From Cutibacterium granulosum (GTDB lineage Bacteria; Actinomycetota; Actinomycetes; Propionibacteriales; Propionibacteriaceae): 64,000 bases of DNA. The notes under the pieces were generated by a model. The model was not told where the DNA came from. It saw only the letters and a list, made by a program, of their open reading frames with translations, and did not search any database. The position numbers and the translations under genes are program-made. Where the stretch lies: positions 930,001 to 994,000 of the forward strand of contig NZ_LT906441.1 in the NCBI RefSeq assembly GCF_900186975.1. Direction: 5' to 3'. Each line of letters starts with the position of its first letter. Position 1 is the stretch's first letter. This document shows, piece by piece, positions 7,856 through 29,614 of the stretch.

Positions 7856-8449
7856 TCAGTCCTTGACCCAGCTCCATGCGACGACGGTGCGGGCGGGTTT
7901 CCACCCGCGCAGCCGCCCGATGTGGTCGGCGTTCTCCACCGAGAACCGCATGAGCTCACCGCCCAGCCGCCCCGACAGGTCGACAACCAGGGTCTCGGCC
8001 TCCATCGTCACCCCGTGGACGACGATCCTTCCATCCTGCGGCAACCGTGCCAGGCAGGCGTCCACGAGCTCAGCTGTCGCCCCGCCACCGATGAACACGG
8101 CATCCGGGGTGGGCAGCCCGTCGGGCAGCCCCTCGGTGAGGTCGTGATCGATCACCGTGAACTGTCCCGGTGCGGTGAGATTCTCGGCATTGGTACGTGC
8201 GTTGGCGGCTCGGTCGGCCCGCCGCTCCACCCCGACCGCGGTACAGGTGGGATCGGTACGGCACCACTCCACGGCGACCGATCCGGCGCCGGTGCCCAGA
8301 TCCCACAGCGTCTGCCCGGGCATGGGGCGCAGGGCGGCCAGCGCCACCGCGCGCACCGGATGCTTCGTGATGAGCCCGTCATGGGCAAAGTGTTCCTCGT
8401 CAAGGCCGGGGGTGCGGCCCAGTTTTGCGGTGTCAGGGTCAATGGTCAC
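7856..8449 (-). CDS. cbiT: Precorrin-6B / cobalt-precorrin-7 C15-methyltransferase (decarboxylating), CbiT
   Basis: CbiT methylates C15 and decarboxylates the C12 acetate side chain during corrin synthesis, using S-adenosylmethionine. The 197-aa protein has the family entry motif DEEHFAHDGLITKHPVRAVAL and the SAM loop DLGTGAGSVAVEW at residues 50-62, then FIGGGA at about 124-129. It corresponds to the C-terminal half of CobL in aerobic organisms, here as a separate gene. Codons 1 to about 62 lie inside the left copy of the 665-bp repeat, and a truncated second copy is at 28905-29135. The divergent partner is the riboswitch of the truncated cobO. Confidence 0.92.
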   Translation of the reverse strand: MTIDPDTAKLGRTPGLDEEHFAHDGLITKHPVRAVALAALRPMPGQTLWDLGTGAGSVAVEWCRTDPTCTAVGVERRADRAANARTNAENLTAPGQFTVIDHDLTEGLPDGLPTPDAVFIGGGATAELVDACLARLPQDGRIVVHGVTMEAETLVVDLSGRLGGELMRFSVENADHIGRLRGWKPARTVVAWSWVKD

Positions 8450-8928
8450 GGCTCAAGGGTATGCCGGGTGAGTGAAAACACCTTCGGTGTGTCAGAATCG
8501 CGGTACCGGCCAGGAGGAATCCGGTGTGAGTCCGGAGCGGTCCCGCCACTGTGAGCCCCGTCGGGCGTGCCTCGACCACCGAGGCGCCTCGATGCGCAAG
8601 CCAGGTCGTCCGGGTCGGTGCTGAGTCAGATCGACGCTGCCATGATGCGGGCGAGGACCCGCGAGGAGGTTTCCATGCCAGCAGGCCAGAGCCCCATCAC
8701 TCAGGACCCGAATGCCGTCCAGGATGGCCGCACCACCAGACAACGGCGTCTGAGACCGGTCGTCATGGTCAACACTGGTGAGGGCAAGGGCAAGACCACT
8801 GCCGCCATGGGAACCGCGCTGCGCGCGTGGAACCACGGCTGGGACGTCGGGGTGTTCCAATTCGTCAAGTCCGGTCGTTGGCACGTCGGCGAGCAGGATG
8901 CCCTGCAGGCCCTGGGAAGTCTGCACGA
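8264..8928. repeat. Left copy of a 665-bp perfect direct repeat (cbiT 5' part, riboswitch, cobO 5' part)
   Basis: This segment reappears in the same orientation at 28950-29614, offset by exactly 20,686 nt. By eye I found no mismatch between the copies. It starts at CCACTCCACGG within cbiT, runs through the intergenic B12 riboswitch, and ends at CTGCACGA inside cobO. Left of it cbiT continues intact; right of it cobO is broken and unrelated sequence starts at 8929. Confidence 0.95.
8483..8615 (+). promoter_or_regulatory. Cobalamin riboswitch (left copy) upstream of truncated cobO
   Basis: The canonical core is clear: GGAATCCGGTGTGAGTCCGG at 8516-8535, GCGGTCCCGCCACTGTGA at 8537-8554, and a B12 box GCAAGCCAGGTCGTCC at 8596-8611. 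It now controls only a broken cobO. The functional duplicate is at 29169-29301. Confidence 0.9.
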
Positions 8929-9100
8929 CGGCTGCGCGGGCTGTCGGGCTGCTTCGTCGCAGCCGCACACGTCGGCCCGGGGCACGCCGTCGGCAAACCT
9001 TCTGACGCGTCCCGGACCGAACACAGATCCTGGCCTCAGCCGTGCGGGCGGCGGGTCGGGAACTGCTTGCGGGCGTAACGAGCGACGCTCCAGGTGGTGA
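8675..9100 (+). pseudogene. cobO: Truncated cobO (5' fragment fused to unrelated downstream sequence)
   Basis: The first 84 to 85 codons are identical to the intact cobO at 29361, including the P-loop NTGEGKGKTTAA. Identity stops at 8928. The frame then continues for about 57 unrelated codons, partly antisense to the end of the EcsC-like gene, before a stop at 9100. The product would keep the nucleotide-binding loop but lose most of the adenosyltransferase fold, so it is almost certainly nonfunctional. ATG at 8675 follows a GAGGAGG ribosome site, as in the intact copy. Confidence 0.88.
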
Positions 9101-9708
9101 ACCCGTCGGTGGTGGCTCCGACTCCACCACCTAACACGGGCACGCGCTTGGAGACGAAGACCGGCAGTTTCTTGCCCGCAACTTGGCCCATGAGGACGTT
9201 GACGAGGTTACGGGCGACGACCTTCTCCAGATCGGCGTCCCCCCACCGGGGCGGTGGCGATGCCCATCGGGGTCGTCGGAAGCTTCTCCTCGTGAATGAG
9301 GCTGTCGACCTCACGCTGACCCATGAGGGTGGCGAGGATGGCGGTCCGGACGCGCTGGTCGTCAAGGTCGTAGCCGCGTAGGTGGGCGATGGCAGCCACC
9401 ATGCGGGCCTGGACGATCGCGACGCCCGAGATGTTGGCGGGGATGGTCACGGCCAAGGTGACGACGCCACCGAGGTTGGAGACGAATCCCTGTGCACCGG
9501 CCATGGCGATGTGCTGGTTGACGAGGGAGTTGATGGCCTGTTCGACGTCACCGTCGTGCTTGGTGAGGGTCTTACCAGCGGCCTGACGCGCTCCCGGCAG
9601 CGATGAGGCACCGTCGATGGCGAATCCCAGGATGCTGCGCAGCATCGAGACGGCCGCGCCGGGTGCCTGAGCCAGCAGGGCCTTGCCGATGTTGCTTCCG
9701 ATTCCCAC
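9036..9708 (-). pseudogene. EcsC-like protein gene split by a one-base frameshift in a C6/G6 run
   Basis: The gene starts at 9708 (MGIGSNIGKALLAQAPG) and reads to about residue 155 in one frame. The C-terminal part (DLEKVVARNLVNVLMG, VLGGGVGATTDGFTTWSVA) continues in another frame to a stop at 9036. The switch lies at a run of six C on the plus strand at 9239-9244; five would restore a single frame of about 224 codons. The Ala/Gly-rich helices and the GGGVGATTDGF..YARKQF ending resemble EcsC-family membrane-associated proteins, but this assignment is tentative. The cause could be a real mutation, slippage-based phase variation or a sequencing error. Confidence 0.65.
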
Positions 9709-9939
9709 GAGGGTCTCCTCTCGATCAACTCACTTCAAGGGTAGCCGTGGGGGCAGGGCGAGTCCTGTGGTGTTCGCGTTGAGGTGGTGACGGGCAATGC
9801 CCGTGGTGATCGCGCCTGCGCGAGGCCGCGATTCCTCCGAACGTGGTGTGCCCTCCAGCGTCACCAGTAGGACCGCCTGTCTGGCCTGTGAGTGTCTCTC
9901 CTTGCCAGGGCGTGAATGACCCCTATTTGTTAACGAGGA

Positions 9940-9967
9940 TAACTAATGAGTTAGGGTTGCCTTATGA
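9940..9967 (+). promoter_or_regulatory. Candidate metal-regulator (DtxR/IdeR-like) site and -10 element before the ECF cluster
   Basis: TAACTA at 9940-9945 could be a -10 box. Just after it TTAGGGTTGCCTTA (9951-9964) has the TTAGG...CCTTA dyad and resembles half of the actinobacterial iron box TTAGGTTAGGCTAACCTAA. It would fit iron or heme control of the transporter that follows. The match is partial. The remaining part of 9709-9939 shows no gene. Confidence 0.35.
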
Positions 9968-10773
9968 ATTGTGACGAGGTGACCGTGGCCCGACAAGGTG
10001 ACATCCCCCCGCTCCCGATGGCCCGCGCCATGGCCGGAAGCGCGCTGACCACCACCCATCGGCCCCGCACTCGGGGGTTCCACGGTGCTGTGGACCCACG
10101 CACCCTGTTCCTCTATGTCATCGTTCTCAACGTCCTTCTCATGGGAGCGGGGTCGACGCCTCTGGTGCTGGCCTGCCTCGGTGTCGTCGCGGTGTCACTC
10201 GTGCTCACGACCCGCCCCACGACGTGGATCGGGTGGCTGGCCTTTGTCCTGGTGTGGGTCTTCTGCTGTTTCGCCCTTCCAGCCCTATGGCACTCGGCTG
10301 TTTCCGCATTTCTGGTCTTCATCGCCTTCTGGATGTTCCGCTTCGCAGGAGTCTTCGGCTCGGCAGTGGCTGCGATCAAGGTTCTCGACGTCACCCGGGT
10401 TGGTTCAGTCCTCACCCAGATGCGTGCGCCGCGGGTCGTGCAGGTCCCGGTGATGGTCGTGGTGAGGTTCTTCCCGATGGCAGTGCGCGAGCTGCGGGCG
10501 ATCGTCCAGGCCATGACCCTGCGAGGCCTGAGACCCGGCGCCCGCTCAACCATGCGCCACCCGCTGCGTACGGGGGAATACGTCGTCATCCCCTTCTTGG
10601 CCTCGGCTGCCCGGATCGCCGACGAGCTCTCCGCCGCAGCCATCATCAAGGGGCTGGGTGCACAAAAATCCCGGTCCACCCTGGACCCGAGTCGTTTCCG
10701 TCTCGGTGACGTCGTCGTGCTGACGGTTTTGGTCGCGTTGATTGCCTGGCGCGTGACCGAGGTGATCGCATGA
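9964..10773 (+). CDS. ECF transporter T-component (EcfT/CbiQ family)
   Basis: This is the transmembrane coupling subunit of an energy-coupling-factor importer (up to 269 aa). Several hydrophobic helices lie in the first half. The C-terminal half carries RELRAIVQAMTLRGLRPGA, the coupling motif region, and later IADELSAAAIIKGLG. The ATG at 9964 has no clear ribosome site and sits on the possible operator, whereas GTG at 9985 follows GACGAGG with good spacing and may be the true start. It overlaps the ATPase gene by 4 nt. Gene order T, A-A, S, two ABC half-transporters, regulator forms a compact operon. Confidence 0.85.
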   Translation: MNCDEVTVARQGDIPPLPMARAMAGSALTTTHRPRTRGFHGAVDPRTLFLYVIVLNVLLMGAGSTPLVLACLGVVAVSLVLTTRPTTWIGWLAFVLVWVFCCFALPALWHSAVSAFLVFIAFWMFRFAGVFGSAVAAIKVLDVTRVGSVLTQMRAPRVVQVPVMVVVRFFPMAVRELRAIVQAMTLRGLRPGARSTMRHPLRTGEYVVIPFLASAARIADELSAAAIIKGLGAQKSRSTLDPSRFRLGDVVVLTVLVALIAWRVTEVIA

Positions 10774-12257
10774 GCGTCAGCCTGACCGACGTCTCCTACG
10801 CCTACCCGGTCCCTGACCTCGACGGGTCCCCGTTCGATGACGGCCCCACGCCCGACCGAGAGGCCGTGGACCAGCTCCGGGACATCACCATGACGATCCG
10901 GCCCGGGACCCTGACCCTGCTCATTGGGGGATCAGGATCGGGGAAGTCCACCCTGCTGCGGACGATGAATGGCCTTGTCCCGAAGTTTTTCGAGGGCACC
11001 ATGCGTGGCAAGGCGGAGGTGGACGGCACTGATCTGGCCGGGGTCGAACTCCACGACGTCGGGCGCACCTCGGCGATGATCTTCCAGAATCCTCGCACCC
11101 AGTTCTTCACCTCCAGCGTGCGAACCGAGCTGGCTTTCGGGCTGGAGAATTACGGGGTCGACCCGTCTGAGATCCGCGACGCTATGACTCGGGCAGTCGG
11201 CCAGACCGGCATCGCACACCTGCTCGACAGGCGGCTCGACACCCTCTCGGGAGGGGAGTTGCAGCGCGTCGCGTGTGCCTGTGCCCTGGTCACTGACGTC
11301 GATCTGCTCCTCTTCGACGAGCCGACCTCGAATCTCTCTGCCGAGGGAATCGACGATTTTCGCCACCTCGTCGCCCAGCTGAAGGCCTCCGGGAAGACGC
11401 TGGTCATTGCCGAGCATCGGCTGCACCTCTTCCGTGGGATGGTCGACGTCGTTCATCGCATTTCTGACGGCAGGGTCGCCGAAACCATGACCGGCGATGA
11501 TCTTTTCAGCCTGACGGACATGGAACGGACCGAACGTGGCCTCCGCGCCGTCGATGTCGTCCCGGTGGACATACCCGAGCCGCCGACCGCCGCAGCCTCC
11601 TCCAACACCGATGGCCCAAAACTCCCGACTGGGCTGATGGTCGAGCACCTGTCCTTCTCCTACGGGCATGGCCCGACGATTCTCGACGTCGACTCCCTCT
11701 TCCTGCCGGCCGGAGCGGTGACGATCCTCACCGGCCCCAATGGCGCGGGCAAATCGACCTTGGCCCGACTGATCTGCGGGCTCGAAAAGTCCCCGCCCAG
11801 CGCCCGTATCGGCATGGGAGAGCCGTGGAGCACCGGCAGGAGGCAGAAATCGTGCGGGATGGTCATGCAGGACGTCCGCCGTCAGCTGTTCAGCGAGTCG
11901 GTGGAGCGGGAAGTCACCCTCGGTCTGGACCCGCGCCAACGCGATGCCGCCAACGTCCCGGCGCTCCTGGAACGTCTCGACCTGGTCGGCCAACGTGACC
12001 GTCACCCCTTGTCACTGTCCGGTGGGCAGGCCCAGCGCCTCGTCGTGGCGGCCACCATCGCTCAGGACAAGGAGGTCGTCATCTTCGACGAGCCCACATC
12101 GGGTGCCGATTTTCGTCACCTCACCTCGATCGCTGACCTCGTCGGTGATCTCGCGACCGCTGGGAAGGTCGTCATCGTCATCACCCACGACCCGGAGCTC
12201 ATGGCCCGATGTGGGGATTACCTCATCAACATCACCACTCTGAAAGGACAATCATGA
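10770..12257 (+). CDS. ECF transporter duplicated ATPase (two ABC domains in one chain)
   Basis: Both ATPase domains of the ECF module are fused in this 495-aa protein. Domain 1 has Walker A GGSGSGKST near residues 53-61 and signature LSGGELQR near 159. Domain 2 has Walker A GPNGAGKST near 322 and signature LSGGQAQR near 415, with Walker B VVIFDEPTSGAD. In domain 1 the Walker B is LLLFDEPTSNLS. Fused A-A' proteins are common for actinobacterial and streptococcal ECF systems. It overlaps its neighbours on both sides by 4 nt. Confidence 0.92.
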   Translation: MSVSLTDVSYAYPVPDLDGSPFDDGPTPDREAVDQLRDITMTIRPGTLTLLIGGSGSGKSTLLRTMNGLVPKFFEGTMRGKAEVDGTDLAGVELHDVGRTSAMIFQNPRTQFFTSSVRTELAFGLENYGVDPSEIRDAMTRAVGQTGIAHLLDRRLDTLSGGELQRVACACALVTDVDLLLFDEPTSNLSAEGIDDFRHLVAQLKASGKTLVIAEHRLHLFRGMVDVVHRISDGRVAETMTGDDLFSLTDMERTERGLRAVDVVPVDIPEPPTAAASSNTDGPKLPTGLMVEHLSFSYGHGPTILDVDSLFLPAGAVTILTGPNGAGKSTLARLICGLEKSPPSARIGMGEPWSTGRRQKSCGMVMQDVRRQLFSESVEREVTLGLDPRQRDAANVPALLERLDLVGQRDRHPLSLSGGQAQRLVVAATIAQDKEVVIFDEPTSGADFRHLTSIADLVGDLATAGKVVIVITHDPELMARCGDYLINITTLKGQS

Positions 12258-12847
12258 AACCCCGTCTGACAACGCGTGACCTGGTGAGTATCGCCATCTT
12301 CGCGGTGATCTTCTTCGTCGTCTTCTACGCCTGCGGCATGATCGGTCTCGCCGGTCCGGCCTTCATGTTCGTCGGTTGGATCCTGGGCATCCTGCTGGGC
12401 GGCATCGTCCTCATGTTGTCAGTTGCACGGGTGCCGAAAATTGGCACCATGACGATCACTGGTCTGCTCGTCGGGCTCGGTATGAGCCCGGGGCACACCA
12501 TCTGGATGATCCCGGCTGGAATAGTGCTCGGATTCCTCTCCGACATCATCATCACCAATGCCGGCCGCAGCACCCGTCTCACGACGAGCTGCGCGATGCT
12601 CGGGTATGCCGTGTTCGTGCTGTGGATGATCGTGCCGCTCATCCCGATGCTCGTGAATACCGACGAGTACTACGCCATGATCACCGAGCAGATGGGTGCC
12701 GACTACTCCAACAAGATGCGGGAACTCTTCACACCTGGCCTGGTGGCGGGATGGGCCGTCATCGTCTTCCTGCTGGGGCTGGCCGGTGGCTGGTTGGGCA
12801 TCAAGGTGGGTCGCAAGCACTTCCAGCGGGCAGGACTGACGAAGTGA
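12254..12847 (+). CDS. MptD/Trep_Strep-type ECF S-component
   Basis: This is the probable substrate-binding membrane subunit (197 aa) of the ECF importer, with five to six hydrophobic helices, a short KPRLTTRDLVSIAIFAVIFF N-terminus and a basic C-terminal tail. The family is often annotated MptD or Trep_Strep. ATG at 12254 overlaps the ATPase stop by 4 nt; longer upstream reading is just overlap with that gene. The related streptococcal SiaFGH system has been reported to import heme, and the following exporter-like half-transporters resemble siderophore importers of the Irt/Ybt kind, so heme or siderophore is my leading guess for substrate. Confidence 0.75.
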   Translation: MKPRLTTRDLVSIAIFAVIFFVVFYACGMIGLAGPAFMFVGWILGILLGGIVLMLSVARVPKIGTMTITGLLVGLGMSPGHTIWMIPAGIVLGFLSDIIITNAGRSTRLTTSCAMLGYAVFVLWMIVPLIPMLVNTDEYYAMITEQMGADYSNKMRELFTPGLVAGWAVIVFLLGLAGGWLGIKVGRKHFQRAGLTK

Positions 12848-14664
12848 CCGAGATCTCCACGTCCCTGCAGGTGTGCCCCGACGCTGTCGCGCCGGGAGGA
12901 ACTCAGGACTATCAGGCCAAGCACCGTGCCGGCGGCAAGGCCCTGTCGATGATCATGAGGCCCATTCGTGGGTACGTCATCGTTGCGCGGATCCTTGTCG
13001 TGGTGTCATGCATCGTCGCACTGGCCCCGTACGTCGCCCTGACGAGACTCGGCGCGATCCTGCTGGGTGATCACGTCGACCGTGAGGCGCTCACCCATAC
13101 CGCCAATGTGCTGTGGATGGCTTTCTGCATCCAGGCCATGCTCTACGTGGTGGCCCTCCTCATCACTCACATCGCCGACATCAAGGTGCGCAACATCTTG
13201 CAGGATCGCATCATCGACCACATCTCGAAGGCGCCGCTGGCCTGGTTCAGCTCGTCGTCAACCGGTCGAGTGCGCAAGGCCATCCAGGACGACACCGTCC
13301 AGATCCACATGCTCGTCGCCCATGCGCCCGTTGAGCAAACCGCAGCCGTGGGAGTTCCGCTCGTCCTGCTCGTCTACGCCTTCGTGGTGGACTGGCGGCT
13401 GGGACTTCTCTCCATCGCCACCTTCCCGATCTACGCCCTGCTGCAGTGGGTGACGATGCGAGACATGGCCACCAAGACCGCCGAGATGGACGACAAACTG
13501 GCCGACATCTCATCCTCGTCGATCGAGCTGACGGAGGGGATCCACGTCGTCAAGAACTTCGGACAGACCGGTAAGGCCCATCGTCGCTTCACCCGTGCGT
13601 GCGAGGAGTTCGCCCAGTTCTACTGGAACTGGTGTGGCCCGCTCATCAAGGCGTCGGCCCTGTCTCTGTCGGTGATCTCGGTGGCCGCCCTCATGGCGAT
13701 CAACCTGGGATTCGGTCTGCTCATGGCCAAGGCCGGCTGGGTGGGCGTCACCGACGTCCTCACCTGTTCACTCATCGCCCTGGTCCTGCCGCGCACCATC
13801 GAGGTACTGGGCAACATGGCATGGGGTTACCAACAGGCCGGCAACGCGGCTCTGCGTCTGCAGGACGTGCTGTCCATCGAGCAGATCAGCCATCCACAGG
13901 TCAGCGCGCGGATTCCTGATGACATGACGGTCACCTTTGACGACGTCAGCGCCTCCTACCTCACCCCTGACGGCGTCATCCCGGCGCTCAGCCACGTCAA
14001 CCTGACGCTGCGTCCGGGGACGGTGACGGCTCTCGTCGGGCCGTCGGGGTCCGGCAAGTCGACCCTGGCGACGATGCTCGCCCGCTTCCGCGACCCTGAT
14101 TCCGGGGTGGTGCGCATTGGTGGGGTCGACCTCAAGGACCTCGCCCAGGACGACCTCTACCGGTTGGTGTCCTTCGTCCTCCAGGATCCGTACATGCAGC
14201 GTCGGTCCATCCGTGACGTCATCACCCTGGCCCGTCCCGACGCCACCGACGACCAGGTGTGCGAGGCTGCTCGGGCCGCCCACATTCTTGACGACATCGA
14301 CGCACTGCCGAAGGGTTTCGACACCGTCCTGGGTGAGGACACCGATTTCTCGGGTGGTCAGAAGCAGCGGCTGTCGATCGCCCGCGCTGTGCTCGCCGAC
14401 GCCCCGATCCTCGTGCTCGACGAGGCGACGGCCGCCACCGATCCCGACTGCGAGGCGGAGATCCAGCAGGCCCTGGCTGCACTGGCCCGGGGCCGAACTG
14501 TGCTCGCCATCGGTCACCACGCCGAGTCGGTGGCCGGAGCTGACGTCATCTGCGTCATGGAGGGCGGTGGCATCGCAGCTTGCGGTTCGTCCGAGGAATT
14601 GGCCGACCAGCCCTACTGGGCGCGTCTGTCGGCAGGGCGAGCGATGGAAGGAGTCACTCAATGA
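12844..14664 (+). CDS. ABC half-transporter (fused membrane and ATPase domains), first of a pair
   Basis: A six-helix membrane domain occupies roughly residues 35-320 of this 606-aa protein, followed by an ATPase domain. Walker A GPSGSGKST is near 398-406, signature FSGGQKQR (F replacing the usual L) near 501, and Walker B PILVLDEATAATD follows. Exporter-fold half-transporters that sit with uptake genes, such as IrtA/IrtB and YbtP/YbtQ, actually import siderophores. GTG at 12844 overlaps the S-component stop; ATG at 12949 is an alternative that would trim 35 residues. It overlaps the next half-transporter by 4 nt, suggesting a heterodimer. Confidence 0.88.
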   Translation: MTEISTSLQVCPDAVAPGGTQDYQAKHRAGGKALSMIMRPIRGYVIVARILVVVSCIVALAPYVALTRLGAILLGDHVDREALTHTANVLWMAFCIQAMLYVVALLITHIADIKVRNILQDRIIDHISKAPLAWFSSSSTGRVRKAIQDDTVQIHMLVAHAPVEQTAAVGVPLVLLVYAFVVDWRLGLLSIATFPIYALLQWVTMRDMATKTAEMDDKLADISSSSIELTEGIHVVKNFGQTGKAHRRFTRACEEFAQFYWNWCGPLIKASALSLSVISVAALMAINLGFGLLMAKAGWVGVTDVLTCSLIALVLPRTIEVLGNMAWGYQQAGNAALRLQDVLSIEQISHPQVSARIPDDMTVTFDDVSASYLTPDGVIPALSHVNLTLRPGTVTALVGPSGSGKSTLATMLARFRDPDSGVVRIGGVDLKDLAQDDLYRLVSFVLQDPYMQRRSIRDVITLARPDATDDQVCEAARAAHILDDIDALPKGFDTVLGEDTDFSGGQKQRLSIARAVLADAPILVLDEATAATDPDCEAEIQQALAALARGRTVLAIGHHAESVAGADVICVMEGGGIAACGSSEELADQPYWARLSAGRAMEGVTQ

Positions 14665-16454
14665 CCACGACCATGAACTCCCGCCTTTCCTGGGCGGGCG
14701 ACATCCTGCTCCTGAACACCTTCAGGCCCCTTCTCACCGAGGAAGGAGCTGCCAAGTTCCGTCGCTCCCTGTGGCTGGCAGGTGTCCAGGGAGTCCTCGA
14801 GGGAGTTGGCCTGTTCGCCATCGTTCCGACGATCACGGCATTCGTCGAGGGTGGACCCTCGATGGGACTGACCTGGCAGGGCTGGGTGTGGGTGCTCGTC
14901 GCCCTGGCCGTTGCCGGGGCCGTCGTGACGTACTTCCAGTCGACGATCGGCTATCTCGCCGCGATGGATGTCATGGGAAAACTCAGCGTGCGCATCGGCG
15001 ACCAGGTGGCGAGCCTGCCACTGGGATGGTTCCGCTCGAGTTTCCCCGGCCGCCTGTCCCGCCTTCTCACTCAGGGACTCATGCACCTGGGCGAGGGGTT
15101 GGCACATTTCACCGCCCCACTCGTGCGCGGTGCCGCGACCACCGTCGTCATGATGGTGCTCTCGTGGTTCTGGTCGTGGCAGTTGGGGTTGTCCCTGCTC
15201 ATCTCGATGCCTGCGATGTGTCTGATCATGATCGCCTCGCGAGCCTTGTGGCTTCGCGGTGAGTCGGTGGTCCAGCCGACCGAGCAGGAACTGGCTGCCC
15301 GCATCGTCGAGTTCTGTGAGACCCAACCAGTGCTGAGGGCCGCCGGCCGAGCCGAGGGCTACGAGCCGCTTCGGAATGCACGCCGGGCCAATGAACGCGC
15401 CGCTCGTAAGTGTCTGGGGCTGGGCGTGACGGCGAACTTCCTCTCGGGTCTGGGTGCCCAGGCGGTCGCGGTCGTCCTCATCGTGCTGGCCGCGCGCATG
15501 GGCAGCAACGGCACCCTCGCCCCGGTCGCGACGGTTGCTTTCGTCGGCGTCTCGCTGCGCTACGCCAAGGTGTTGGAGGACGTCGTCTCGGCTGCTCTGT
15601 CCGTCGAGACCGCGCGCAAGCCGGTCAGTGAGGTCGACGAGATCCTCTCGGCTGAGGTGCTTCCCGAGCCCGAGGCCCCGGGCGACATGACAGCTCCCGG
15701 TGAGGTGTCCTTCGAAGACGTCTCCTTCGGTTATGACAAGGAGCACCCGGTCGTCCATGACGTCACGTTCACTGCTCCAGCGGGGGGTTTGACGGCCATT
15801 GTCGGCCCCTCGGGGGCTGGCAAGACGACTCTGTTCCGGCTCATGGCGAGGTTCTGGGACGTCGACTCCGGGACGGTGCGTGTCGGCGGACTGGACGTGC
15901 GCGACCAAACCACCGAGCAGCTCATGAGTCAGCTCGCCATGGTTTTCCAGGACGTTTATCTCTACGACTCCACTTTGGCGGAGAACATCCGCATCGGTGA
16001 CCCGGATGCCACGGACGAGCAGGTCCGGAAGGCGGGGTCTCTGGCCGGGGTCGATGAGATCGCAGCTCGTCTGCCCGGTGGATGGGACGCCGGCGTTGGT
16101 GAAGGTGGCCGTCGTCTCTCGGGTGGTGAACGGCAACGGGTGTCGGTGGCACGAGCCTTGCTGAAACGCGCCCCGATCCTGCTCTTCGACGAGGCCACCT
16201 CTGCTCTCGACCCGGAGAACGAGGCCCACATCGAGGCCGCCCTGGCCCAGCTGCGTGAGTTCTCGACGATCCTCGTCATCGCTCACAAGCTCGACACCAT
16301 CCGTTCGGCGGATCGCATCGTCGTCATCGATCACACCGGTAGAGTCTGCCAAGTGGGAACCCATGACGACCTCATTGCCAGCGGCGGTGCTTACGCCGAT
16401 CTGTGGCATGCCCGGGAGCGGGCCGAGGGGTGGTCGCTCGTGGGCCGTGAATGA
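14661..16454 (+). CDS. ABC half-transporter (fused membrane and ATPase domains), second of a pair
   Basis: This is the partner subunit of the preceding protein (597 aa). The membrane domain spans about residues 20-330, Walker A GPSGAGKTT is near 379, signature LSGGERQR near 485, and Walker B PILLFDEATSALD. Unlike its partner it has the canonical LSGGE signature, so the heterodimer has one consensus and one slightly altered site. ATG at 14661 (MTTTMNSRL) overlaps the previous stop; the longer open frame upstream is shadow. The stop overlaps the TetR gene by 4 nt. Confidence 0.88.
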   Translation: MTTTMNSRLSWAGDILLLNTFRPLLTEEGAAKFRRSLWLAGVQGVLEGVGLFAIVPTITAFVEGGPSMGLTWQGWVWVLVALAVAGAVVTYFQSTIGYLAAMDVMGKLSVRIGDQVASLPLGWFRSSFPGRLSRLLTQGLMHLGEGLAHFTAPLVRGAATTVVMMVLSWFWSWQLGLSLLISMPAMCLIMIASRALWLRGESVVQPTEQELAARIVEFCETQPVLRAAGRAEGYEPLRNARRANERAARKCLGLGVTANFLSGLGAQAVAVVLIVLAARMGSNGTLAPVATVAFVGVSLRYAKVLEDVVSAALSVETARKPVSEVDEILSAEVLPEPEAPGDMTAPGEVSFEDVSFGYDKEHPVVHDVTFTAPAGGLTAIVGPSGAGKTTLFRLMARFWDVDSGTVRVGGLDVRDQTTEQLMSQLAMVFQDVYLYDSTLAENIRIGDPDATDEQVRKAGSLAGVDEIAARLPGGWDAGVGEGGRRLSGGERQRVSVARALLKRAPILLFDEATSALDPENEAHIEAALAQLREFSTILVIAHKLDTIRSADRIVVIDHTGRVCQVGTHDDLIASGGAYADLWHARERAEGWSLVGRE

Positions 16455-18922: not shown

Positions 18923-18978
18923 GGGCGAGTCTGGGGTGTCATCGGGGGGGCTCCTGGTCTGGGTCGACGCTGGGTTAC

Positions 18979-20702: not shown

Positions 20703-20708
20703 GAGATG

Positions 20709-20785: not shown

Positions 20786-20788
20786 CTC

Positions 20789-21730: not shown

Positions 21731-21842
21731 TTCTTCACGGCCCTCAGGTCTTTCAGTAGTAGTCGTCAGCGGACAGGCCCGCCGTCTACACAGTCGGGTG
21801 GGCAGGCGGTGATCGCCGCCTGCCCTGGACGGATGGTGCTTC

Positions 21843-22319: not shown

Positions 22320-22439
22320 GGTCAACGCTTCCTTTCCTGGTGAGATTCGTGCTGCGGGTGTGGGCCAGTGACCGGTCGCGCCGATCGGATTGGTATCTGC
22401 AAGGCAGCCATTGCCCCACAATCTCGATGGATCCAGCCT

Positions 22440-22466
22440 ATGTGGCCAGTGTGGCCAGTGTGGCCA
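22440..22466. repeat. Three tandem 9-bp units upstream of the cupin gene
   Basis: The unit TGTGGCCAG is repeated three times head to tail from 22440 to 22466. It lies about 120 nt upstream of the cupin start, where a variable-number repeat could affect expression. Confidence 0.7.
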
Positions 22467-22545
22467 GACTATCCTGCCCACCCACCTTGACGACATGTTC
22501 GACAATTCCAAGGGGTCTAGGCCTCTCTAGAGGAGAGTACGTGCT

Positions 22546-22707
22546 GTGTCGGCTCACTTCGACATGGAGATCCACGACGACGAGTTCCAGTCCGGCGTTC
22601 CCGCGGACAAGCAGCCGACGGTCTCCGACGTCCTGAACATCTGGCGTGAGAGGTACAAAAGGCCGCCAGGGAGGAGTCTCGGCGCTGTGATCATGGCGAG
22701 GGGCTAG
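22546..22707 (+). CDS. Small hypothetical protein (53 aa)
   Basis: A GTG start at 22546 lies about 10 nt after GAGGAG and reads VSAHFDMEIHDDEFQSGVPA, then QPTVSDVLNIWRERYKRPPG to a stop at 22705-22707. The composition is balanced and protein-like, unlike the shadow frames around it. It overlaps the end of the convergent membrane-protein gene by 4 nt. It could also be the surviving end of a larger decayed gene. I do not recognise a family. Confidence 0.35.
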   Translation: MSAHFDMEIHDDEFQSGVPADKQPTVSDVLNIWRERYKRPPGRSLGAVIMARG

Positions 22708-23120
22708 GACTTCTTCTTCCGGGTGTCCCGGATCCCCTGGATGAGGATCGCGAGGATCCCGATCACCATGACCCACGCCATTTCCCCGACGGCGCCGTAC
22801 CACGGTTGGATGAGGGCGGTGAGGGCGAGGACGATGAGAGCCCACGCGGCGAGGATGAGCGTCAGGATGAGCAAACGTGCAGCTCGTGTCTGGCCCGGTT
22901 TGCCTCCGCCGCGGGGGAACATTCGGTTCTCGCCAACCAGTTCCAGCAGGATCTCGCCGGGGATTCCGATGAGCAGGACTCCGACGAACATCCTCAGCGA
23001 CCAGCGCCAACCGATGAAGATCGCCACGATCGCGAACACCACGGCCATGCAGATCGTAAACGCGACGGTGCCCGCAAAGATCCTCTCAGCGCGGGACGGT
23101 TCCTTCTCCTCGATGGTCAT
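22704..23120 (-). CDS. Small membrane protein, four predicted helices
   Basis: A 138-aa protein begins MTIEEKEPSRAERIFAGTVAF and has hydrophobic segments near residues 15-35, 40-58, 80-105 and 112-130, ending in a basic RDTRKKKS tail that suggests a cytoplasmic C-terminus. ATG at 23120 follows AGGAAG closely; an alternative ATG at 23153 would add 11 residues. No family is recognised and no partner gene lies on the same strand. Confidence 0.55.
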   Translation of the reverse strand: MTIEEKEPSRAERIFAGTVAFTICMAVVFAIVAIFIGWRWSLRMFVGVLLIGIPGEILLELVGENRMFPRGGGKPGQTRAARLLILTLILAAWALIVLALTALIQPWYGAVGEMAWVMVIGILAILIQGIRDTRKKKS

Positions 23121-23577
23121 GACTTCCTCACACTCGCTCGCCAGCGTCGTCACGCACGTGGCTGACGACCTGCTCTGACAAGGCCAAGTGTCCTCCAGGA
23201 AGGCTCACGACCAAACCGAGGGGCTCCAGGCCGGACTGGGGATGCTACGAGACGTGTCCGTATGGAGGGTATGGGGATCAGTTGCACCGAATCCGTCGGC
23301 TCCTATCTCGATGAGGGTTCCGGGGCCGACGCCGACTCCGATACGAATGATGAGGTCCACCCAGTCGAGCATGATTCCTTCCAAGATTCGGGCAGGGCGG
23401 CACCAGGGGACAGTGAAATGTGTGGCACATACCCGTTGGACAATGAGGGGGGCAGGACACGCGGATGTGCGAGTCCTGGAGCAAAGGCGCTCTGACCAGC
23501 CCGAACAGCCTCAGCAGAAGGTGAGGTGGGACGACTCAACGATCAGTGGTGCGGTGGAGGGCCTCTATTCTGACGCC
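23121..23577. other. Spacer without a supported gene
   Basis: This holds the upstream regions of the small membrane protein and the nucleoside hydrolase. Long open frames here are Arg/Pro/Ser-rich and lack ribosome sites. A minus-strand stretch around 23300-23400 (WVDLIIRIGVGVGPGTLIEI) looks protein-like and may be a decayed fragment. Confidence 0.3.
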
Positions 23578-24546
23578 ATGCCCACACGTTTCTTGCCGGT
23601 TCTGCTCGATTGCGACCCTGGGATTGACGACGCGTTCGCGCTGGCCTACCTGGCGTGCCGCGACGATGTCGAGACCGTCGGGGTGGTGACGACAGCTGGC
23701 AATGTCGGTCAGGACGACGTGCTGCGCAATGCCCTGGGGCTGACCGAGCTGCTCGGGATGGATGCCCCGGTGGCGCGTGGGGCGGACGCGCCCCTCGTCG
23801 AGCCGGTGATGACCGCCGAGGAGACCCATGGACCCCACGGTTTGGGGCATGCCCAGCTGGGGGACTGCGGACGTCACCCCGATGGGCGCAGCGGTGCGCA
23901 ACTGTGGGTGGATCTTGCCCGGAAATACCCCGGCGAGCTGGTCGGCATCGTCACCGGGCCGCTGACGAACCTCGCGCTGGCGCTGCGGGAAGAACCGGAC
24001 TTGCCGCAGTTGTTGCGGGGGCTGCACGTCATGGGTGGAGCGATCAACCACCGTGGCAACACCGGCCCGACGAGCGAGTGGAACATCGCGGTGGACCCGG
24101 AGGCCGGCCATGAGGTGTTCGAGGCATGGGGGAAGGCGTCCAAACGGGTCGTGCTTGGGGCGTTGCAGGCCACTGAGGTCATCAGGCTGGACGAGAGGGA
24201 TCGTCGGGCTGTGAAGGAGCTAGGGGAACATCCGGTTGTGAAAGTCTTGGCCGACGCGCTGAGGTTCTACTTCGAGTTCCACGAGGCTGACGGGTTGGGA
24301 TGGTGTGCGTACTTGCACGACCCGCTCGTCGTCGCCAATGCGGTGACCGGGAGATTTGCGACGACGCGGCCACTGGCCGTCGACGTCGAGCTGACCGGGA
24401 CGCTCACCCGTGGCCAGACCGTCGGTGACGAGATGGGGCGGTGGGGCAAGGAGCCCAACGTCGACCTGCTGTGTGACGTCGACGCCGAACGGTTTATTGA
24501 GCACCTCATCTCGACGTTGCGGGAGGGGCTAGGCGCCGGGCGCTGA
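23578..24546 (+). CDS. Inosine-uridine-preferring nucleoside hydrolase family protein
   Basis: This 322-aa enzyme would hydrolyse the N-glycosidic bond of ribonucleosides for salvage. The N-terminal motif LLDCDPGIDDAFAL (residues 8-21) is the family's Ca2+-binding DxDxxxDD signature. GIVTGPLTNLALALREEP and the NIAVDPEAGHEVFEAW block, and the late HDPLVVANAV calcium-ligand region, are all intact. ATG at 23578 (MPTRFLPVLLDCDPG) is set by the motif, which lies at the start of all family members; upstream open reading is shadow. It stands alone, so substrate specificity remains open. Confidence 0.92.
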   Translation: MPTRFLPVLLDCDPGIDDAFALAYLACRDDVETVGVVTTAGNVGQDDVLRNALGLTELLGMDAPVARGADAPLVEPVMTAEETHGPHGLGHAQLGDCGRHPDGRSGAQLWVDLARKYPGELVGIVTGPLTNLALALREEPDLPQLLRGLHVMGGAINHRGNTGPTSEWNIAVDPEAGHEVFEAWGKASKRVVLGALQATEVIRLDERDRRAVKELGEHPVVKVLADALRFYFEFHEADGLGWCAYLHDPLVVANAVTGRFATTRPLAVDVELTGTLTRGQTVGDEMGRWGKEPNVDLLCDVDAERFIEHLISTLREGLGAGR

Positions 24547-24607
24547 GATCAGGCGGCGTTTGGAACGAGCGGTCGACGAGCCTCTGGTAAGAGCAGGGGA
24601 TGCCTCA

Positions 24608-24637
24608 TTGAACTACTATGCAATGCAAGGTACATTG
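24608..24637 (+). promoter_or_regulatory. Promoter and candidate PadR operator
   Basis: TTGAAC (24608-24613), a 17-nt spacer, and TACATT (24631-24636) form a good promoter. The inverted repeat CAATG (24621-24625) / CATTG (24633-24637) overlaps the spacer and -10 box, the position expected for autorepression by the PadR protein encoded 33 nt downstream. Confidence 0.5.
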
Positions 24638-24669
24638 TTAGTCAAGCTACTTGGTTGAGGAGGAAAACC

Positions 24670-25017
24670 GTGGCGGAACGACAACTGCGCAAGGGTGCGC
24701 TCGAACTCGTCGTCCTCGGGTTGCTGGCGAGCAAACCGTCCTACGGAGGGGAACTCGTGGACAGGCTCGAGAAGGAGACGGATCTGGGCGTGTCTCAGGG
24801 GACGCTGTACCCGTTGCTCAACCGACTGCGTCGCGGTGATCTGGTTTCGACCGAGTGGCAGGAGTCGCCGTCAGGGCCTCCGCGCAAGATCTATCGCCTG
24901 ACTGCCACCGGTCGAGGCTACCTGACAGAGCTCATCGATGAGTGGTCGCGCATCGCAGCCGCCGTCGACCGTGCCACCAACGATAACCACAACACTTCTG
25001 GCAAGGAGAGATCATGA
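24670..25017 (+). CDS. PadR-family transcriptional regulator
   Basis: A 115-aa winged-helix regulator with RKGALELVVLGLLASKPSYGGELVDRLE at the N-terminus, the GTLYPLLNRLRRGDLV recognition region and the RKIYRLTATGRGYLTEL wing, all diagnostic of PadR proteins. GTG at 24670 follows an excellent GAGGAGGAAAA site. It overlaps the next gene by 4 nt and probably represses its own operon with the two membrane proteins downstream. PadR proteins of this size often respond to drugs, phenolics or cell-envelope stress; the signal here is unknown. Confidence 0.9.
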   Translation: MAERQLRKGALELVVLGLLASKPSYGGELVDRLEKETDLGVSQGTLYPLLNRLRRGDLVSTEWQESPSGPPRKIYRLTATGRGYLTELIDEWSRIAAAVDRATNDNHNTSGKERS

Positions 25018-25733
25018 ACCTCTGGACTCGAGACGATGATGGCGTGCGTCGCCTGTTCGGCATCCCCGTCGGTGCGCCGTGGGGGAGCGGCTCCCGCATT
25101 GCGCTGCGCGGTTTCGAACCTGAGAACCCGCACCTGCTAGTGCCTCGCGCTGTGGGCATCGGATGGGATCTCAATCTGGGCGCCGTCGCCGTGCGCCTGG
25201 GGCTCATCCGCCCCGACGACTCCCTGCCCGACCTCAACGAATACGTTCCCGAGACGCTGCGTCGCGGCCTGGTTGCAGCGCCGTGGATCGGGGCCGGCGT
25301 CGCCAGCGGCATGGCACTCGGTTTCGTCAAGGCTGACCGGGTGGCGACGTCGTGGTCGCTCGGCGGCAAACCCAACCACTACATGAGCGGTGTGGCAGCA
25401 GCCCTGACGACTACCGGAATTACCACGGCGGCAGCCCTCTACCCGCGCTGGGTCGGGAAGGAGGATGGAGCTGACATCGCGGCGACGGCCCAGGCCCTGG
25501 GCATCCTGACCGTCATCGGTATGGCAAATCGGGCTGCCCGCAAGGAGATTCGTCGTCCCGGGAGCCGTCAGCCCCTCGCGGTTGTCGGAGCAATGCTGGC
25601 GCCGGTTGTCATGGGTGGAGTGCTGGTCGGAACGGTCAAGGTCGCCCTCGACGGCGTCGCACAGTCACTCGCGCATGGCGGCAAGGCGGGTCAGTCCGGG
25701 GAGCGAGGCCGCAACATAGGATTCCACTCATGA
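25014..25733 (+). CDS. DUF5808-like membrane protein in the PadR operon
   Basis: The 239-aa protein starts with a soluble segment in which PENPHLLVPRAVGIGWDLNLG matches the DUF5808 pattern (a D/ENPxxxVPxxxGxGWxLN motif). Hydrophobic helices follow near residues 85-105, 125-145 and 185-212. It is co-transcribed with padR by a 4-nt overlap, and with the next gene by another. PadR operons with DUF-type membrane proteins are common in actinobacteria; the function is unknown. Confidence 0.65.
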   Translation: MNLWTRDDDGVRRLFGIPVGAPWGSGSRIALRGFEPENPHLLVPRAVGIGWDLNLGAVAVRLGLIRPDDSLPDLNEYVPETLRRGLVAAPWIGAGVASGMALGFVKADRVATSWSLGGKPNHYMSGVAAALTTTGITTAAALYPRWVGKEDGADIAATAQALGILTVIGMANRAARKEIRRPGSRQPLAVVGAMLAPVVMGGVLVGTVKVALDGVAQSLAHGGKAGQSGERGRNIGFHS

Positions 25734-26269
25734 AGTACCTCCGATCCGTGGCCGTGATCTCAGCGGTCCTGCTCATCGCCGTCGCGGTCGCGAGGTCCTT
25801 CAACCGGTTCATCCCGGCTGTCAACAACACCACGATCGCCATCGTCGATCTGTGTCTGGTCGCTCTGGCCGTCGAGGTCATCGCCGAGTGTGCACGCATG
25901 CCCGGACGCACGAAGGGGTGGCGCATCGGGCGGGCCATCGCGATCATCGCGGCGGTGGTGGTGAGCGGGGTCATAGGGTTCCTGGCCCTGCTGTGGAGCG
26001 CCTTCGAAGGTGACGGAGGCGGGTCGTTCACCAAGGACGGCGAGACCTACTACGTCATGAGGACGTTCCCCGACAACGTCGTCATGTACCGAAAGACGTC
26101 GCCGGTGACCATGGCGGAGTCTGCGTTCGCCGACGACTCCGGCCACGCCCTCGGATTCGTGCCGATGCCGGTCGCTCTGTCAATCAGTCTGGATGAGTAC
26201 GGCGGGGAGTACTCACAGATCCTGGCTGATGTACGTCGTGATCATCCCGATTGGCTCACCGACCGGTAG
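25730..26269 (+). CDS. Hypothetical membrane protein, last gene of the PadR operon
   Basis: This 179-aa protein has three N-terminal helices (about residues 6-22, 34-52, 67-90). A soluble domain follows that reads GGGSFTKDGETYYVMRTFPDNVVMYRKTS, possibly exposed outside the membrane. ATG at 25730 overlaps the preceding stop by 4 nt. I do not recognise a family. A 70-residue frame just after it (ending WAGFVAGILFLLAAVATLRK at about 26400) looks like the last helix of another decayed membrane protein. Confidence 0.6.
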   Translation: MKYLRSVAVISAVLLIAVAVARSFNRFIPAVNNTTIAIVDLCLVALAVEVIAECARMPGRTKGWRIGRAIAIIAAVVVSGVIGFLALLWSAFEGDGGGSFTKDGETYYVMRTFPDNVVMYRKTSPVTMAESAFADDSGHALGFVPMPVALSISLDEYGGEYSQILADVRRDHPDWLTDR

Positions 26270-26439
26270 CCCATGGTCTGGCGAACGGTTCATCTCGCAT
26301 CCATCAGACCGCCCGTCGGTGGCCGTGTGGGCCGGATTCGTGGCCGGAATTCTCTTCCTCCTGGCGGCCGTCGCAACGTTGAGGAAACCCTCGACCGACG
26401 AGTAGCGATCATAGAGGACCCGGAAAAGGGCATGAAGAG

Positions 26440-26485
26440 AGCGGGCGACGGGAATCGAACCCGCGTGTCCAGCTTGGGAAGCTGG
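26440..26485 (-). other. 3' half of a tRNA-Gly(CCC): possible integration-site remnant
   Basis: On the minus strand the anticodon stem-loop CCAGC-TTCCCAA-GCTGG (26485-26469), the T arm GCGGG-TTCGATT-CCCGT and the acceptor strand CGCCCGC plus T are all present in order. No matching 5' acceptor strand or D arm lies upstream, so it is not a full tRNA. A 3' tRNA piece of about 46 bp is what site-specific integration or imprecise excision of a genomic island leaves behind. Confidence 0.7.
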
Positions 26486-26980
26486 GCCGCACTGGGATCC
26501 AGGCGTGCGCGGTCGCCTGATGATGCGACGATGTACCCGTTGGTGACCGACGTCGACCGATGGATTGGGTACGGACGCCTGGCGAGTGTTCGATTAATCG
26601 GGGTGGCTCGACGGTCGCGTGGGGTGACTTTGGCGGGGGAGTGTTGAGCGGGTCTCGGACGGCGGGTCTGGAGCACGTTCTTCGTTCCTTGCGTGCCGGG
26701 TGGGGTGCGACGGGGTGCAAGGCAGGAGCGAAGCGGATGCCGTGCGGGGCCCTGCGCAGTTCGTCGAGCTCGGCGGCGTCAGCCGCCGCTTGAAAAGCCA
26801 GTAGGGGAAGGTTCTCACGGACCCGCTAGTTTCGTTGGAAGGATTGGTGCCCGGGCGCTTCCGGTGATTCAAACACCAATCGGCCGGGAGGCAGGGTGGG
26901 GCTTGACGCGAGTCTCGGGTTTTGATCCTTTCGCCTGATTTGCGTTCCCCGATGCGGGGCCGGTGTGGTGGGCTAGGGAT
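26486..26980. other. Gene-poor stretch beside the tRNA fragment
   Basis: No gene is supported across 26270-26980 apart from the tRNA fragment. On the minus strand near 26700-26800, ENLPLLAFQAAADAAELDEL looks protein-like but has no start, and is probably the end of a decayed gene. Confidence 0.3.
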
Positions 26981-27886
26981 ATGTCGACACTCGAAGAGAT
27001 GTTTCCTCCCTTCGGCCTGCGGATCTCATGCAGGACCCTCCGTCTCGCGGTCCTTCGTGACGAGGACCTTCCCGAGCTGGTGGAACTTGTGCGAGGGGGA
27101 ATCCAAGTGCCCGACTTGCTGATGCCCTTCCTGCGGGATTGGCATCAGCAGCCCTACCAGCCAGGGGATCCCTATGCGTTCCCTGCTACCTCATTGTCGT
27201 GGTGGTGGTCGCAGCGTTCGACGTTCGCTCCCGAAGAGTGGCGTTTTGCCCTGACAGTCCGTCACAAGGGGGAGCTGGTGGGAATGCAAGACGTACACGG
27301 TCGACACTTTCCTCAGGCTCGTCACGTTCTCACCGGTTCATGGTTGGGGCGGTACCACCAGGGCCAGGGGATCGGTACACTGATGCGACAGATGGTGGTG
27401 GGCTTTGCGTTCGATGAATTGGGTGTGCTCGAGTGCGAGTCTGGCTATGTCGAGGGCAACGCAGCATCGGCGGCCGTCAGCCGCAAGGTGGGCTACGTCG
27501 ACAATGGTCATCGTCGAATCGTGCAGAACGTTCAGGATGGCGCTCAAGGAGTCACTGAACGGCGAGTACTGGTGACGCCGGAGACATTTCGCCGCCCCGG
27601 CGACCCTGTCACAGTTGAGGGGGCGAGGCGCTCAGAAGGTTCTTATGTGTGCAGATCTGAAGCTGTGAAAATTCAAGCGGATGGTCTGAGCTCTGTGCTT
27701 AGCCAAGGATCTGGATCGCACAGCGATTTGCAGGTTGTGCGCTGGAGTCTGTGTGGGGGTGTAGCCGTAGTGGATCGTCGGCAGGCCAGGGATGCGGCGG
27801 TCGGGCCAAGCCGTGCTGGGGATCCTGGTCGTTGTTCGGTCCGTGACCAAACCATGGGGCACACAGCGGGACACCTCCCCGGATGA
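26981..27886 (+). CDS. GNAT-family N-acetyltransferase with a likely non-native C-terminal tail
   Basis: Residues 1 to about 215 form a GNAT enzyme: LRLAVLRDEDLPELVELVRGG at the start, GSWLGRYHQGQGIGTLMRQM as the acetyl-CoA loop (Q-G-Q-G-I-G), and YVEGNAASAAVSRKVGY. The remaining 85 or so residues (from about 216) are low-complexity and overlap, antisense, a mutarotase fragment at 27790-28031. The native stop seems to have been lost in a rearrangement, so the tail is probably not conserved. ATG at 26981 is favoured over an in-frame ATG 18 nt earlier. The substrate is unknown. Confidence 0.75.
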   Translation: MSTLEEMFPPFGLRISCRTLRLAVLRDEDLPELVELVRGGIQVPDLLMPFLRDWHQQPYQPGDPYAFPATSLSWWWSQRSTFAPEEWRFALTVRHKGELVGMQDVHGRHFPQARHVLTGSWLGRYHQGQGIGTLMRQMVVGFAFDELGVLECESGYVEGNAASAAVSRKVGYVDNGHRRIVQNVQDGAQGVTERRVLVTPETFRRPGDPVTVEGARRSEGSYVCRSEAVKIQADGLSSVLSQGSGSHSDLQVVRWSLCGGVAVVDRRQARDAAVGPSRAGDPGRCSVRDQTMGHTAGHLPG

Positions 27887-28031
27887 CCGCGTCGGACTCG
27901 TCGGCGTGCTCGGGGTCGAACCAGATGACGGGCTTGCCGTCGGCCTGCCACGCCAGCACCTGGCAGCCGTGCTCTGCGACCTGCCATGCGCCGTCATGAG
28001 CGGTGTGAAGGGTTCCGGGGAGGTTGGTCAT
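27790..28031 (-). pseudogene. N-terminal fragment of an aldose-1-epimerase-like (hexose-6-phosphate mutarotase) gene
   Basis: From ATG at 28031 the frame reads MTNLPGTLHTAHDGAWQVAE, then QVLAWQADGKPVIWFDPEHADE and GGVPLCAPWFGHGPNNDQDPQHGLAR. The GG(V/I)P.C.PWFG...HG(F/L)AR pattern is the N-terminal signature of YeaD-type mutarotases. After about 80 codons the resemblance stops, while a full protein would be about 270 aa. The first 17 nt lie just beyond the end of the serB pseudogene, so the two were probably neighbours on the same strand. Confidence 0.65.
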
Positions 28032-28047
28032 GCCCCCATGATCGTGG

Positions 28048-28908
28048 TCATCGTTCCCACACTGCGCGAAGCGCGTCGATCCGCTCACAACGGATGGTGT
28101 TTCGTGCAGCCTCGACGACGACAGGTTTGGCGCAGAAGGCGATGGCCAGCCCGGCGGCGGCAAACATGTCGAGGTCGTTGGCGCCGTCTCCCACCGCGAT
28201 CGTTCGCTCAAGATCTACCTCACGCTCCTCAGCCCAACGACGCAGTCAGGTGGCCTTGGCTGCCCGATCGACGATGTTCCCGACAACCCGGCCAGTGAGG
28301 TGGTCGTCGACGATCTCGAGCTCGTTGGAGGCTGAGAAATCGGCGCCGATCTCCGCAGCAAGCGGATCGACCAGGGCCGTGAACCCTCCTGACACCAACC
28401 CGACGGCTGCACCGACCTCGTGCGCCGCGGCCACCAGTTCCGTCGCACCCGGGGCGACGACGGTCGCCTTGCGAGCCTCCTCGAGGGCCCCGACGTGCAG
28501 ACCCTCCAGGCACTTGACGCGCTCGTGAAGGGACTCGGCAAAGTCGAGCGTTCCGGCCATCGCCCGGGCCGTCACCTCACTGACCTCCTCAGCCTTCCCT
28601 GCGCACTCGGCGAGTAGGTCGATGGCCTCGGTGCGCGTGACTGTCGAGTCGACGTCACAGACAATGAGACCGGGCGGCTCGACAGCCAGGGCGCCATGGG
28701 GATGCAGGACGCCGGCGCCGGTCTGGGCGGCGAGTTCGCGTACCTGTGTCATGTTGCCCTCGAAGGACATGGCGTACTCGAAGATGTGAGCGGCCCAGTC
28801 ACTGGTGTGGATGCCGCGCATGCAGGCGGAGCCGGGCCAAAGAAGGGTGCCGGGGGAGCGGAGGCTGGAGCGATCGTCACTGACGAGGATGACGCGAGAA
28901 CTCATCAT
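28048..28908 (-). pseudogene. serB: Phosphoserine phosphatase serB interrupted by an in-frame TGA
   Basis: The upstream part has the HAD catalytic motif VCDVDSTVTRTEAID and motif II region GLVSGGF. At 28248-28246 the codon after KAT is TGA where family logic suggests Trp (TGG). The same frame then continues without a break through LRRWAEEREVDLERTIAVGDGANDLDMFAAAGLAIAF, including the essential GDGAND motif, to a natural stop at 28048. One base change (G to A) explains everything. The truncated product would lack Mg2+ binding. Start is ATG 28908 or 28905. Other serine genes appear at the window's right end (serC). Confidence 0.85.
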
Positions 28909-29135
28909 GGCACCACGGTAGGTGGGTTTCGGCCCGTCGGGTGGGGGTTCCACTCCACGGCGACCGATCCGGCGCCGGTGCCCAGATCCCACAGCGTCTG
29001 CCCGGGCATGGGGCGCAGGGCGGCCAGCGCCACCGCGCGCACCGGATGCTTCGTGATGAGCCCGTCATGGGCAAAGTGTTCCTCGTCAAGGCCGGGGGTG
29101 CGGCCCAGTTTTGCGGTGTCAGGGTCAATGGTCAC
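28905..29135 (-). pseudogene. cbiT: Truncated cbiT (5' fragment in the right repeat copy)
   Basis: The first 62 codons are identical to the intact cbiT (including DLGTGAGSVAVEW). The frame then leaves the repeat at 28950 and ends after about 14 unrelated codons at 28905, next to the serB start. The product would lack most of the methyltransferase fold. Confidence 0.88.
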
Positions 29136-29614
29136 GGCTCAAGGGTATGCCGGGTGAGTGAAAACACCTTCGGTGTGTCAGAATCGCGGTACCGGCCAGG
29201 AGGAATCCGGTGTGAGTCCGGAGCGGTCCCGCCACTGTGAGCCCCGTCGGGCGTGCCTCGACCACCGAGGCGCCTCGATGCGCAAGCCAGGTCGTCCGGG
29301 TCGGTGCTGAGTCAGATCGACGCTGCCATGATGCGGGCGAGGACCCGCGAGGAGGTTTCCATGCCAGCAGGCCAGAGCCCCATCACTCAGGACCCGAATG
29401 CCGTCCAGGATGGCCGCACCACCAGACAACGGCGTCTGAGACCGGTCGTCATGGTCAACACTGGTGAGGGCAAGGGCAAGACCACTGCCGCCATGGGAAC
29501 CGCGCTGCGCGCGTGGAACCACGGCTGGGACGTCGGGGTGTTCCAATTCGTCAAGTCCGGTCGTTGGCACGTCGGCGAGCAGGATGCCCTGCAGGCCCTG
29601 GGAAGTCTGCACGA
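28950..29614. repeat. Right copy of the 665-bp perfect direct repeat
   Basis: Identical by eye to 8264-8928. On its left it joins the serB upstream region; on its right it continues into an intact cobO. The two copies bound a 20,021-bp interval (8929-28949). Confidence 0.95.
29169..29301 (+). promoter_or_regulatory. Cobalamin riboswitch (right copy) upstream of intact cobO
   Basis: The same core as at 8483-8615: GGAATCCGGTGTGAGTCCGG at 29202-29221, TCCCGCCACTGTGA after it, and the B12 box at 29282-29297. It controls the cobO, cobB/cobC, cobA operon. Confidence 0.92.

Follow-up and report, generated by a model that had tools for sequence, protein, structure and literature searches.

How did an interval of 20 kb come to lie between two perfect copies of a piece of the cbiT-cobO region, in a chromosome whose relatives keep that region undivided? 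The question is raised by a 64,000-nucleotide stretch of the Cutibacterium granulosum chromosome (assembly GCF_900186975.1, contig NZ_LT906441.1, positions 930,001 to 994,000, or G000:C1:930001-994000), here called the window and numbered from its first base. The evidence presented below gives good support to an origin of the interval in the chromosome of another Cutibacterium species, and leads us to favor, with some reserve, its addition as a linear fragment joined to the host without long homology. The host assembly is a single contig of 2,175,244 bases (completeness 99.75, contamination 0.33) and was the only genome representing its species in this work, the comparison set being formed by eight other genomes of the genus. 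According to parts of a genome paper on C. granulosum (PMC10832045), genomes of the species measure 2.153 ± 0.103 Mb and several tens of them are public.

Results

Perfect direct repeats and the empty site in related genomes

Positions 8264-8928 and 28950-29614, both on the forward strand, were identical at 665 of 665 bases, with no mismatch and at an offset of 20,686, confirming what the preliminary description of this DNA had noted by eye. The identity ended sharply, as the adjoining 100-base blocks on either side were only 22-33% identical. Full-length copies of the repeat occurred just twice in the genome (G000:C1:938264-938928 and 958950-959614), and the three remaining matches to it spanned 27-49 bases each. 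An exact repeat of 665 bases is far beyond chance.

Each copy comprises the 5' part of cbiT, a cobalamin riboswitch and the 5' part of cobO. The left copy belongs to an intact cbiT (7856-8449, reverse strand; above the cut-off of NCBIfam TIGR02469), carries its riboswitch at 8520-8605 (forward strand; Rfam RF00174, 41.7 bits) and leads into a truncated cobO (8567-9100, forward strand) that reads into the foreign DNA and covers only positions 3-55 of the 172 of profile PF02572. The right copy carries the second riboswitch (29206-29291, forward strand; RF00174) and belongs to an intact cobO (29253-29990, forward strand; above the cut-offs of NCBIfam PRK05986 and cobA), the start of this open reading frame (ORF) being uncertain. 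The host-side borders of the insert fall within cobO and cbiT, and the split of the two genes described earlier was thus borne out.

It had also been predicted that deletion of 8929-29614 would restore one clean locus, and a search for the interval in related genomes had been proposed. With the query 7800-9300, cbiT-cobO was found without the interval in all eight other genomes of the genus, aligning as one piece in seven of them and as two pieces in G004. Upon in silico removal of 8929-29614, the resulting single cbiT-cobO locus aligned in one piece across both borders in five of six loci of the genus, sampled from genomes other than G002 and G005, and also in a locus from another genus (L009), in agreement with the prediction. 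The sixth genus locus (L014) aligned with the joined host sequence in three pieces because its leader has diverged. Since the relatives carry the empty site, the interval is the newcomer.

Similarity of the interval to other Cutibacterium chromosomes

The interval proper (8929-28949) measures 20,021 bp and resembles a chromosome segment of Cutibacterium avidum. The query 8950-28940 had matches in all nine genomes of the genus, and the longest collinear set was that of C. avidum ATCC 25577 (G005, NZ_JH165054.1), with blocks at 8920-12178 (96.6% identity), 11179-17139 (92.9%), 21818-25847 (94.2%), 26420-26485 (98.5%) and 27797-28961 (95.1%). Together these blocks account for 13,460 of the 20,021 interval bases (67%) and belong to a locus of G005 that differs from the cbiT-cobO site. 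As a control, the host flank 29615-49500 was compared with the same genome, and among the matches listed those longer than 300 bases had identities of 65-88%. The closest relative shifted along the interval when 500-base windows were considered, being G003 at 10.4-12.4 kb (98.4-99.6%), G002 at 22.9-24.4 kb (99.4-99.8%) and G005 at 27.9-28.9 kb (95.6-96.2%). An origin in interspecies chromosomal DNA is well supported by these comparisons, and the donor, judging from the identities along the blocks, is an avidum-like chromosome, itself mosaic and other than that of ATCC 25577.

A duplicative rearrangement within the genome, raised earlier as an alternative, found no support, as the collinear matches sit in other Cutibacterium species (up to 99.8% in 500-base windows); internal duplication was rejected because the host's own matches to the interval were short, or 66-79% identical where longer. 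A literature search for transfer between C. avidum and C. granulosum found no paper, and main-text parts of the C. granulosum genome paper (PMC10832045) make no mention of the insertion.

At 10400-24400 of the window, the blocks with the ECF transporter and ABC exporters and with the nucleoside hydrolase were 98-99.8% identical across different Cutibacterium species, as if this region were often exchanged within the genus.

Junctions between host and donor DNA

At the left junction (8923-8928, forward strand) six bases are common to the host and to the donor relative, the last nine agreeing at eight positions. At the right junction (28950-28961, forward strand) two bases are shared exactly, or 10 of 12 if an imperfect stretch is accepted. 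Beyond these bases donor and host diverge, with no long homology at either join. At least six shared bases occurred in 0.26% of 200,000 simulated joins (a chance of 0.0026 for the left junction), and this microhomology points to illegitimate joining. The left break retains only the final part of a donor ORF; the right break falls within a few tens of bases of the likely start of a foreign serB, on its upstream side.

The outer-right flank of the donor locus matched the host at its native counterpart locus only, plus two short matches elsewhere, and the outer-left flank had no match in the host in a search run without a positive control. Closure of a circle through repeats in the donor outer flanks was considered and rejected, these flanks offering just 11-15-base matches at chance level.

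A second serB interrupted by a stop codon

The foreign serB (28051-28905, reverse strand; identified by protein search and the SerB family of Pfam) is interrupted by a premature in-frame stop at 28246-28248. A protein search found serB single and stop-free in each of the eight other genomes of the genus (with a partial match, residues 74-282, in G008), while the host has it twice, with one stop, which lies in the foreign copy. The native host serB, at 793-794 kb, is an open frame with 73% protein identity; the DNA adjoining it is 77-86% identical to G005, and a 47-base match to the tRNA-Gly of the interval lies near 786330 in the same native counterpart. The transfer would have left the host with two copies each of tRNA-Gly and serB, as a merodiploid, and the stop was probably acquired later, in the presence of a working serB. 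A stop in the foreign gene beside a working copy argues against a plain contaminant. The absence of differences in 1,330 repeat bases limits the divergence since the event to at most about 0.23% at 95% (3/1,330), which corresponds to about 45 changes over the length of the interval, and one stop plus one frameshift are therefore compatible with perfect repeats.

Gene content of the interval

Twenty hand-picked ORFs of the interval were scanned against Pfam, and 17 of them matched. Transporters made up part of this set (an ECF transporter, two ABC exporters and MFS), as did the regulator families TetR and PadR; the others were two GNATs, Abi_2, cupin, nucleoside hydrolase, SerB and a fragmentary aldose epimerase. 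Among these 20 ORFs, three of which lacked a Pfam match, no integrase, transposase or relaxase was recognized, nor any replication protein.

Next to the left border lies an EcsC-family gene (9039-9708, reverse strand; Pfam), which comparison with relatives showed to be frameshifted relative to G005 and G002. It is followed on the forward strand by an ECF transporter (9964-12847) with a T component, a double ATPase and an S component of the MptD family (Pfam CbiQ, ABC_tran and Trep_Strep; TIGR02185), by two ABC exporter genes (12376-16454; ABC_membrane and ABC_tran) with uncertain ORF starts, and by a TetR-family regulator (16451-17095; TetR_N). The double ATPase has a 53% identical relative on L030, a contig binned as Actinomycetaceae. 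A block of 4.7 kb without continuous match in the G005 locus (17140-21817) holds an MFS transporter, a GNAT and an AbiD-like (Abi_2) gene (20774-21730, forward strand; PF07751, PADLOC AbiD), the last with an 86% relative elsewhere in G005. Further along the forward strand are a nucleoside hydrolase (23188-24546; PF01156; ORF start uncertain) and a PadR-family regulator (24655-25017; PF03551).

A tRNA-Gly(CCC) at 26439-26516 (reverse strand) is the second copy of a sequence also present near G000:C1:786330, and is separated from the next shared block by about 6.7 kb in G005 but by 1.3 kb in the interval. Its 3' part (26439-26487) matched 12 records of Propionibacterium freudenreichii phages over 49 bases at 93.9% identity, and this stretch is probably the core of a phage attachment site. 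An insertion targeted site-specifically to the tRNA was rejected, the gene being internal to the interval. A phage origin was likewise rejected, as megablast retrieved 13 phage records of which 12 matched just those 49 bases; the 13th, an unannotated fecal record, matched 845 bases at 71.7%, near 23.6-24.4 kb of the window, at the nucleoside hydrolase. A plasmid origin was rejected in the absence of any megablast match among 72,556 plasmid records.

Outside the interval, at 42627-43395 of the window, repeat units of roughly 77 and 261 nt followed one another head to tail, perhaps belonging to a repetitive surface-protein gene.

Discussion

A possible route of integration

The best reading of this locus, which we hold to be somewhat better than an even bet, is an illegitimate and additive integration of a linear fragment of interspecies chromosome whose ends were joined to the host 665 bp apart. 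A linear donor fragment would have entered by transformation, transduction or mating and would have been joined illegitimately at both ends, at 8928, where the 6-bp microhomology lies, and 665 bp upstream, at 8264. The fragment may have linked two sister chromatids at unequal positions; alternatively, a broken replication fork may have taken the donor as its template before returning to the sister at a point 665 bp back. Either route would duplicate the bases between the joins, so that neither cbiT nor cobO is lost and the insert comes as a pure addition. The redundant foreign serB would later have acquired its stop. We regard this mechanism as plausible, with roughly equal chances of being right or wrong. 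End joining by Ku was considered and rejected, since a search for Ku found nothing in the host; of the 14 control genomes, Bacillus subtilis alone gave a match.

Several observations weigh against this reading. The stretch of G005 leaves 33% of the interval unmatched, one 500-base window reaches only 82%, and the nearest relative changes along the interval (up to 99.8% for G002 and 99.6% for G003), which leaves room for a different mosaic Cutibacterium as the donor. At the right junction, sharing of at least two bases was seen in 18% of the 200,000 simulated joins; a 10/12 stretch touching the join was seen in 0.08% (0.0008), by a measure picked post hoc. The donor outer flanks had no significant similarity to the 665-bp region, with 11-19-base matches at chance level only, and homologous pairing of the donor fragment with a host repeat, as in the interchromatid model, thus finds no support. 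The host has a match to ComEC, which says little because 10 of the 14 control genomes have one as well. How the DNA entered, and the bridging or template switch itself, are put forward as a proposal.

Campbell-type integration of a circle leaves an insert flanked by direct repeats of its target, and the geometry observed here is exactly that outcome of a single crossover, as the preliminary description had pointed out. Recombination by RecA at cbiT-cobO would have involved a circle in which a host-identical piece of 665 bp accompanied 20 kb of avidum-like DNA. The direct repeats of the target and the empty site stand, but such a circle must already have borne the host-identical 665 bp, and neither a circle, a replicon nor a mobility gene was recognized here: the 20 interval ORFs revealed no replication, relaxase or other transfer, integrase or vector gene, and no plasmid matched. 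Moreover, the left join between host and donor sits at a 6-bp microhomology, and a circle merely shifts the illegitimate joins one step earlier. We consider this explanation unlikely, and a two-step course marginally more so, in which cbiT-cobO was first duplicated in tandem and one of the copies later gave way in part to foreign DNA, so that 665 bp remained. Spontaneous tandem duplications are described as common in bacteria in parts of PMC3784515, yet this course needs an extra event, no trace of a longer duplication was seen, and the repeat borders coincide with both donor joins.

Mis-assembly seems to us unlikely too, to the same degree as the circle. Chimeric reads would have joined a fragment of a co-sequenced Cutibacterium to the host at two points 665 bp apart, a scenario that would suit the perfect identity of the repeats and the changing nearest relative of the interval but that calls for two independent chimeras, in direct orientation and at one locus. 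The assembly is one contig with a contamination of 0.33, and the foreign serB bears a stop although each of the eight other genomes of the genus has a single, open serB, as if this DNA had lived beside a second, working serB. Self-insertion of a mobile element with long terminal repeats, be it an integrative element, a phage or an island, we find very improbable. The 49 bases that the tRNA-Gly of the interval shares with P. freudenreichii phage records would make the donor locus an attachment region, but this tRNA sits 2.5 kb inward of the right end and off the border, the repeats consist of host gene DNA, and integrase and transposase were absent among the scanned ORFs.

Comparison with known systems

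Illegitimate, additive integration of a linear fragment shares features with three systems. Double illegitimate and homology-facilitated illegitimate recombination occur in natural transformation of Acinetobacter (de Vries and Wackernagel 2002, Huelter and Wackernagel 2008, as cited in parts of PMC4437187), where foreign DNA is likewise joined without long homology and with microhomology at a join; unlike those cases, the present event is natural, adds 20 kb, duplicates 665 bp of the target and keeps both host genes. In Streptococcus pneumoniae, merodiploids form through interchromatid integration of transforming DNA, as described in parts of PMC3784515, and donor DNA bridging sister chromatids to yield a tandem duplication offers a model for the 665-bp duplication. 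However, pneumococcal pairing is homologous, through repeats, and the duplications span about 100-900 kb, whereas the joins seen here look illegitimate and the duplication is of 665 bp. For starving Escherichia coli, template switching was proposed as the source of complex chromosome changes (PMC3161906, in part). A fork jumping to another template and back can similarly produce an insert with a duplication on its flanks, but in E. coli the template is the cell's own chromosome, whereas here it would be the DNA of another species.

Significance for the genus

Ordinary interspecies recombination replaces homologous DNA, and the gain of new genes is usually credited to mobile elements. At this locus, a segment that carries regulators, exporters, an ECF transporter and an AbiD-like gene appears to have been added at a non-homologous site with both cobalamin genes preserved, a sign that large pieces of chromosome can pass from one species to another and be gained with no obvious mobile element involved. 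Excision through the flanking repeats is plausible from their arrangement, and these repeats make the stability of the insert directly measurable. We suggest, tentatively and with more doubt than confidence, that Cutibacterium species may exchange pieces of 20 kb additively and without a mobile element, a linear fragment being captured at microhomologies, either between sister chromatids or through template switching; the target would be duplicated with no gene lost, and the repeats would let RecA test, amplify or discard the new genes. If confirmed by reads, the locus would be a clean natural case of chromosomal gene gain among strongly diverged skin commensals.

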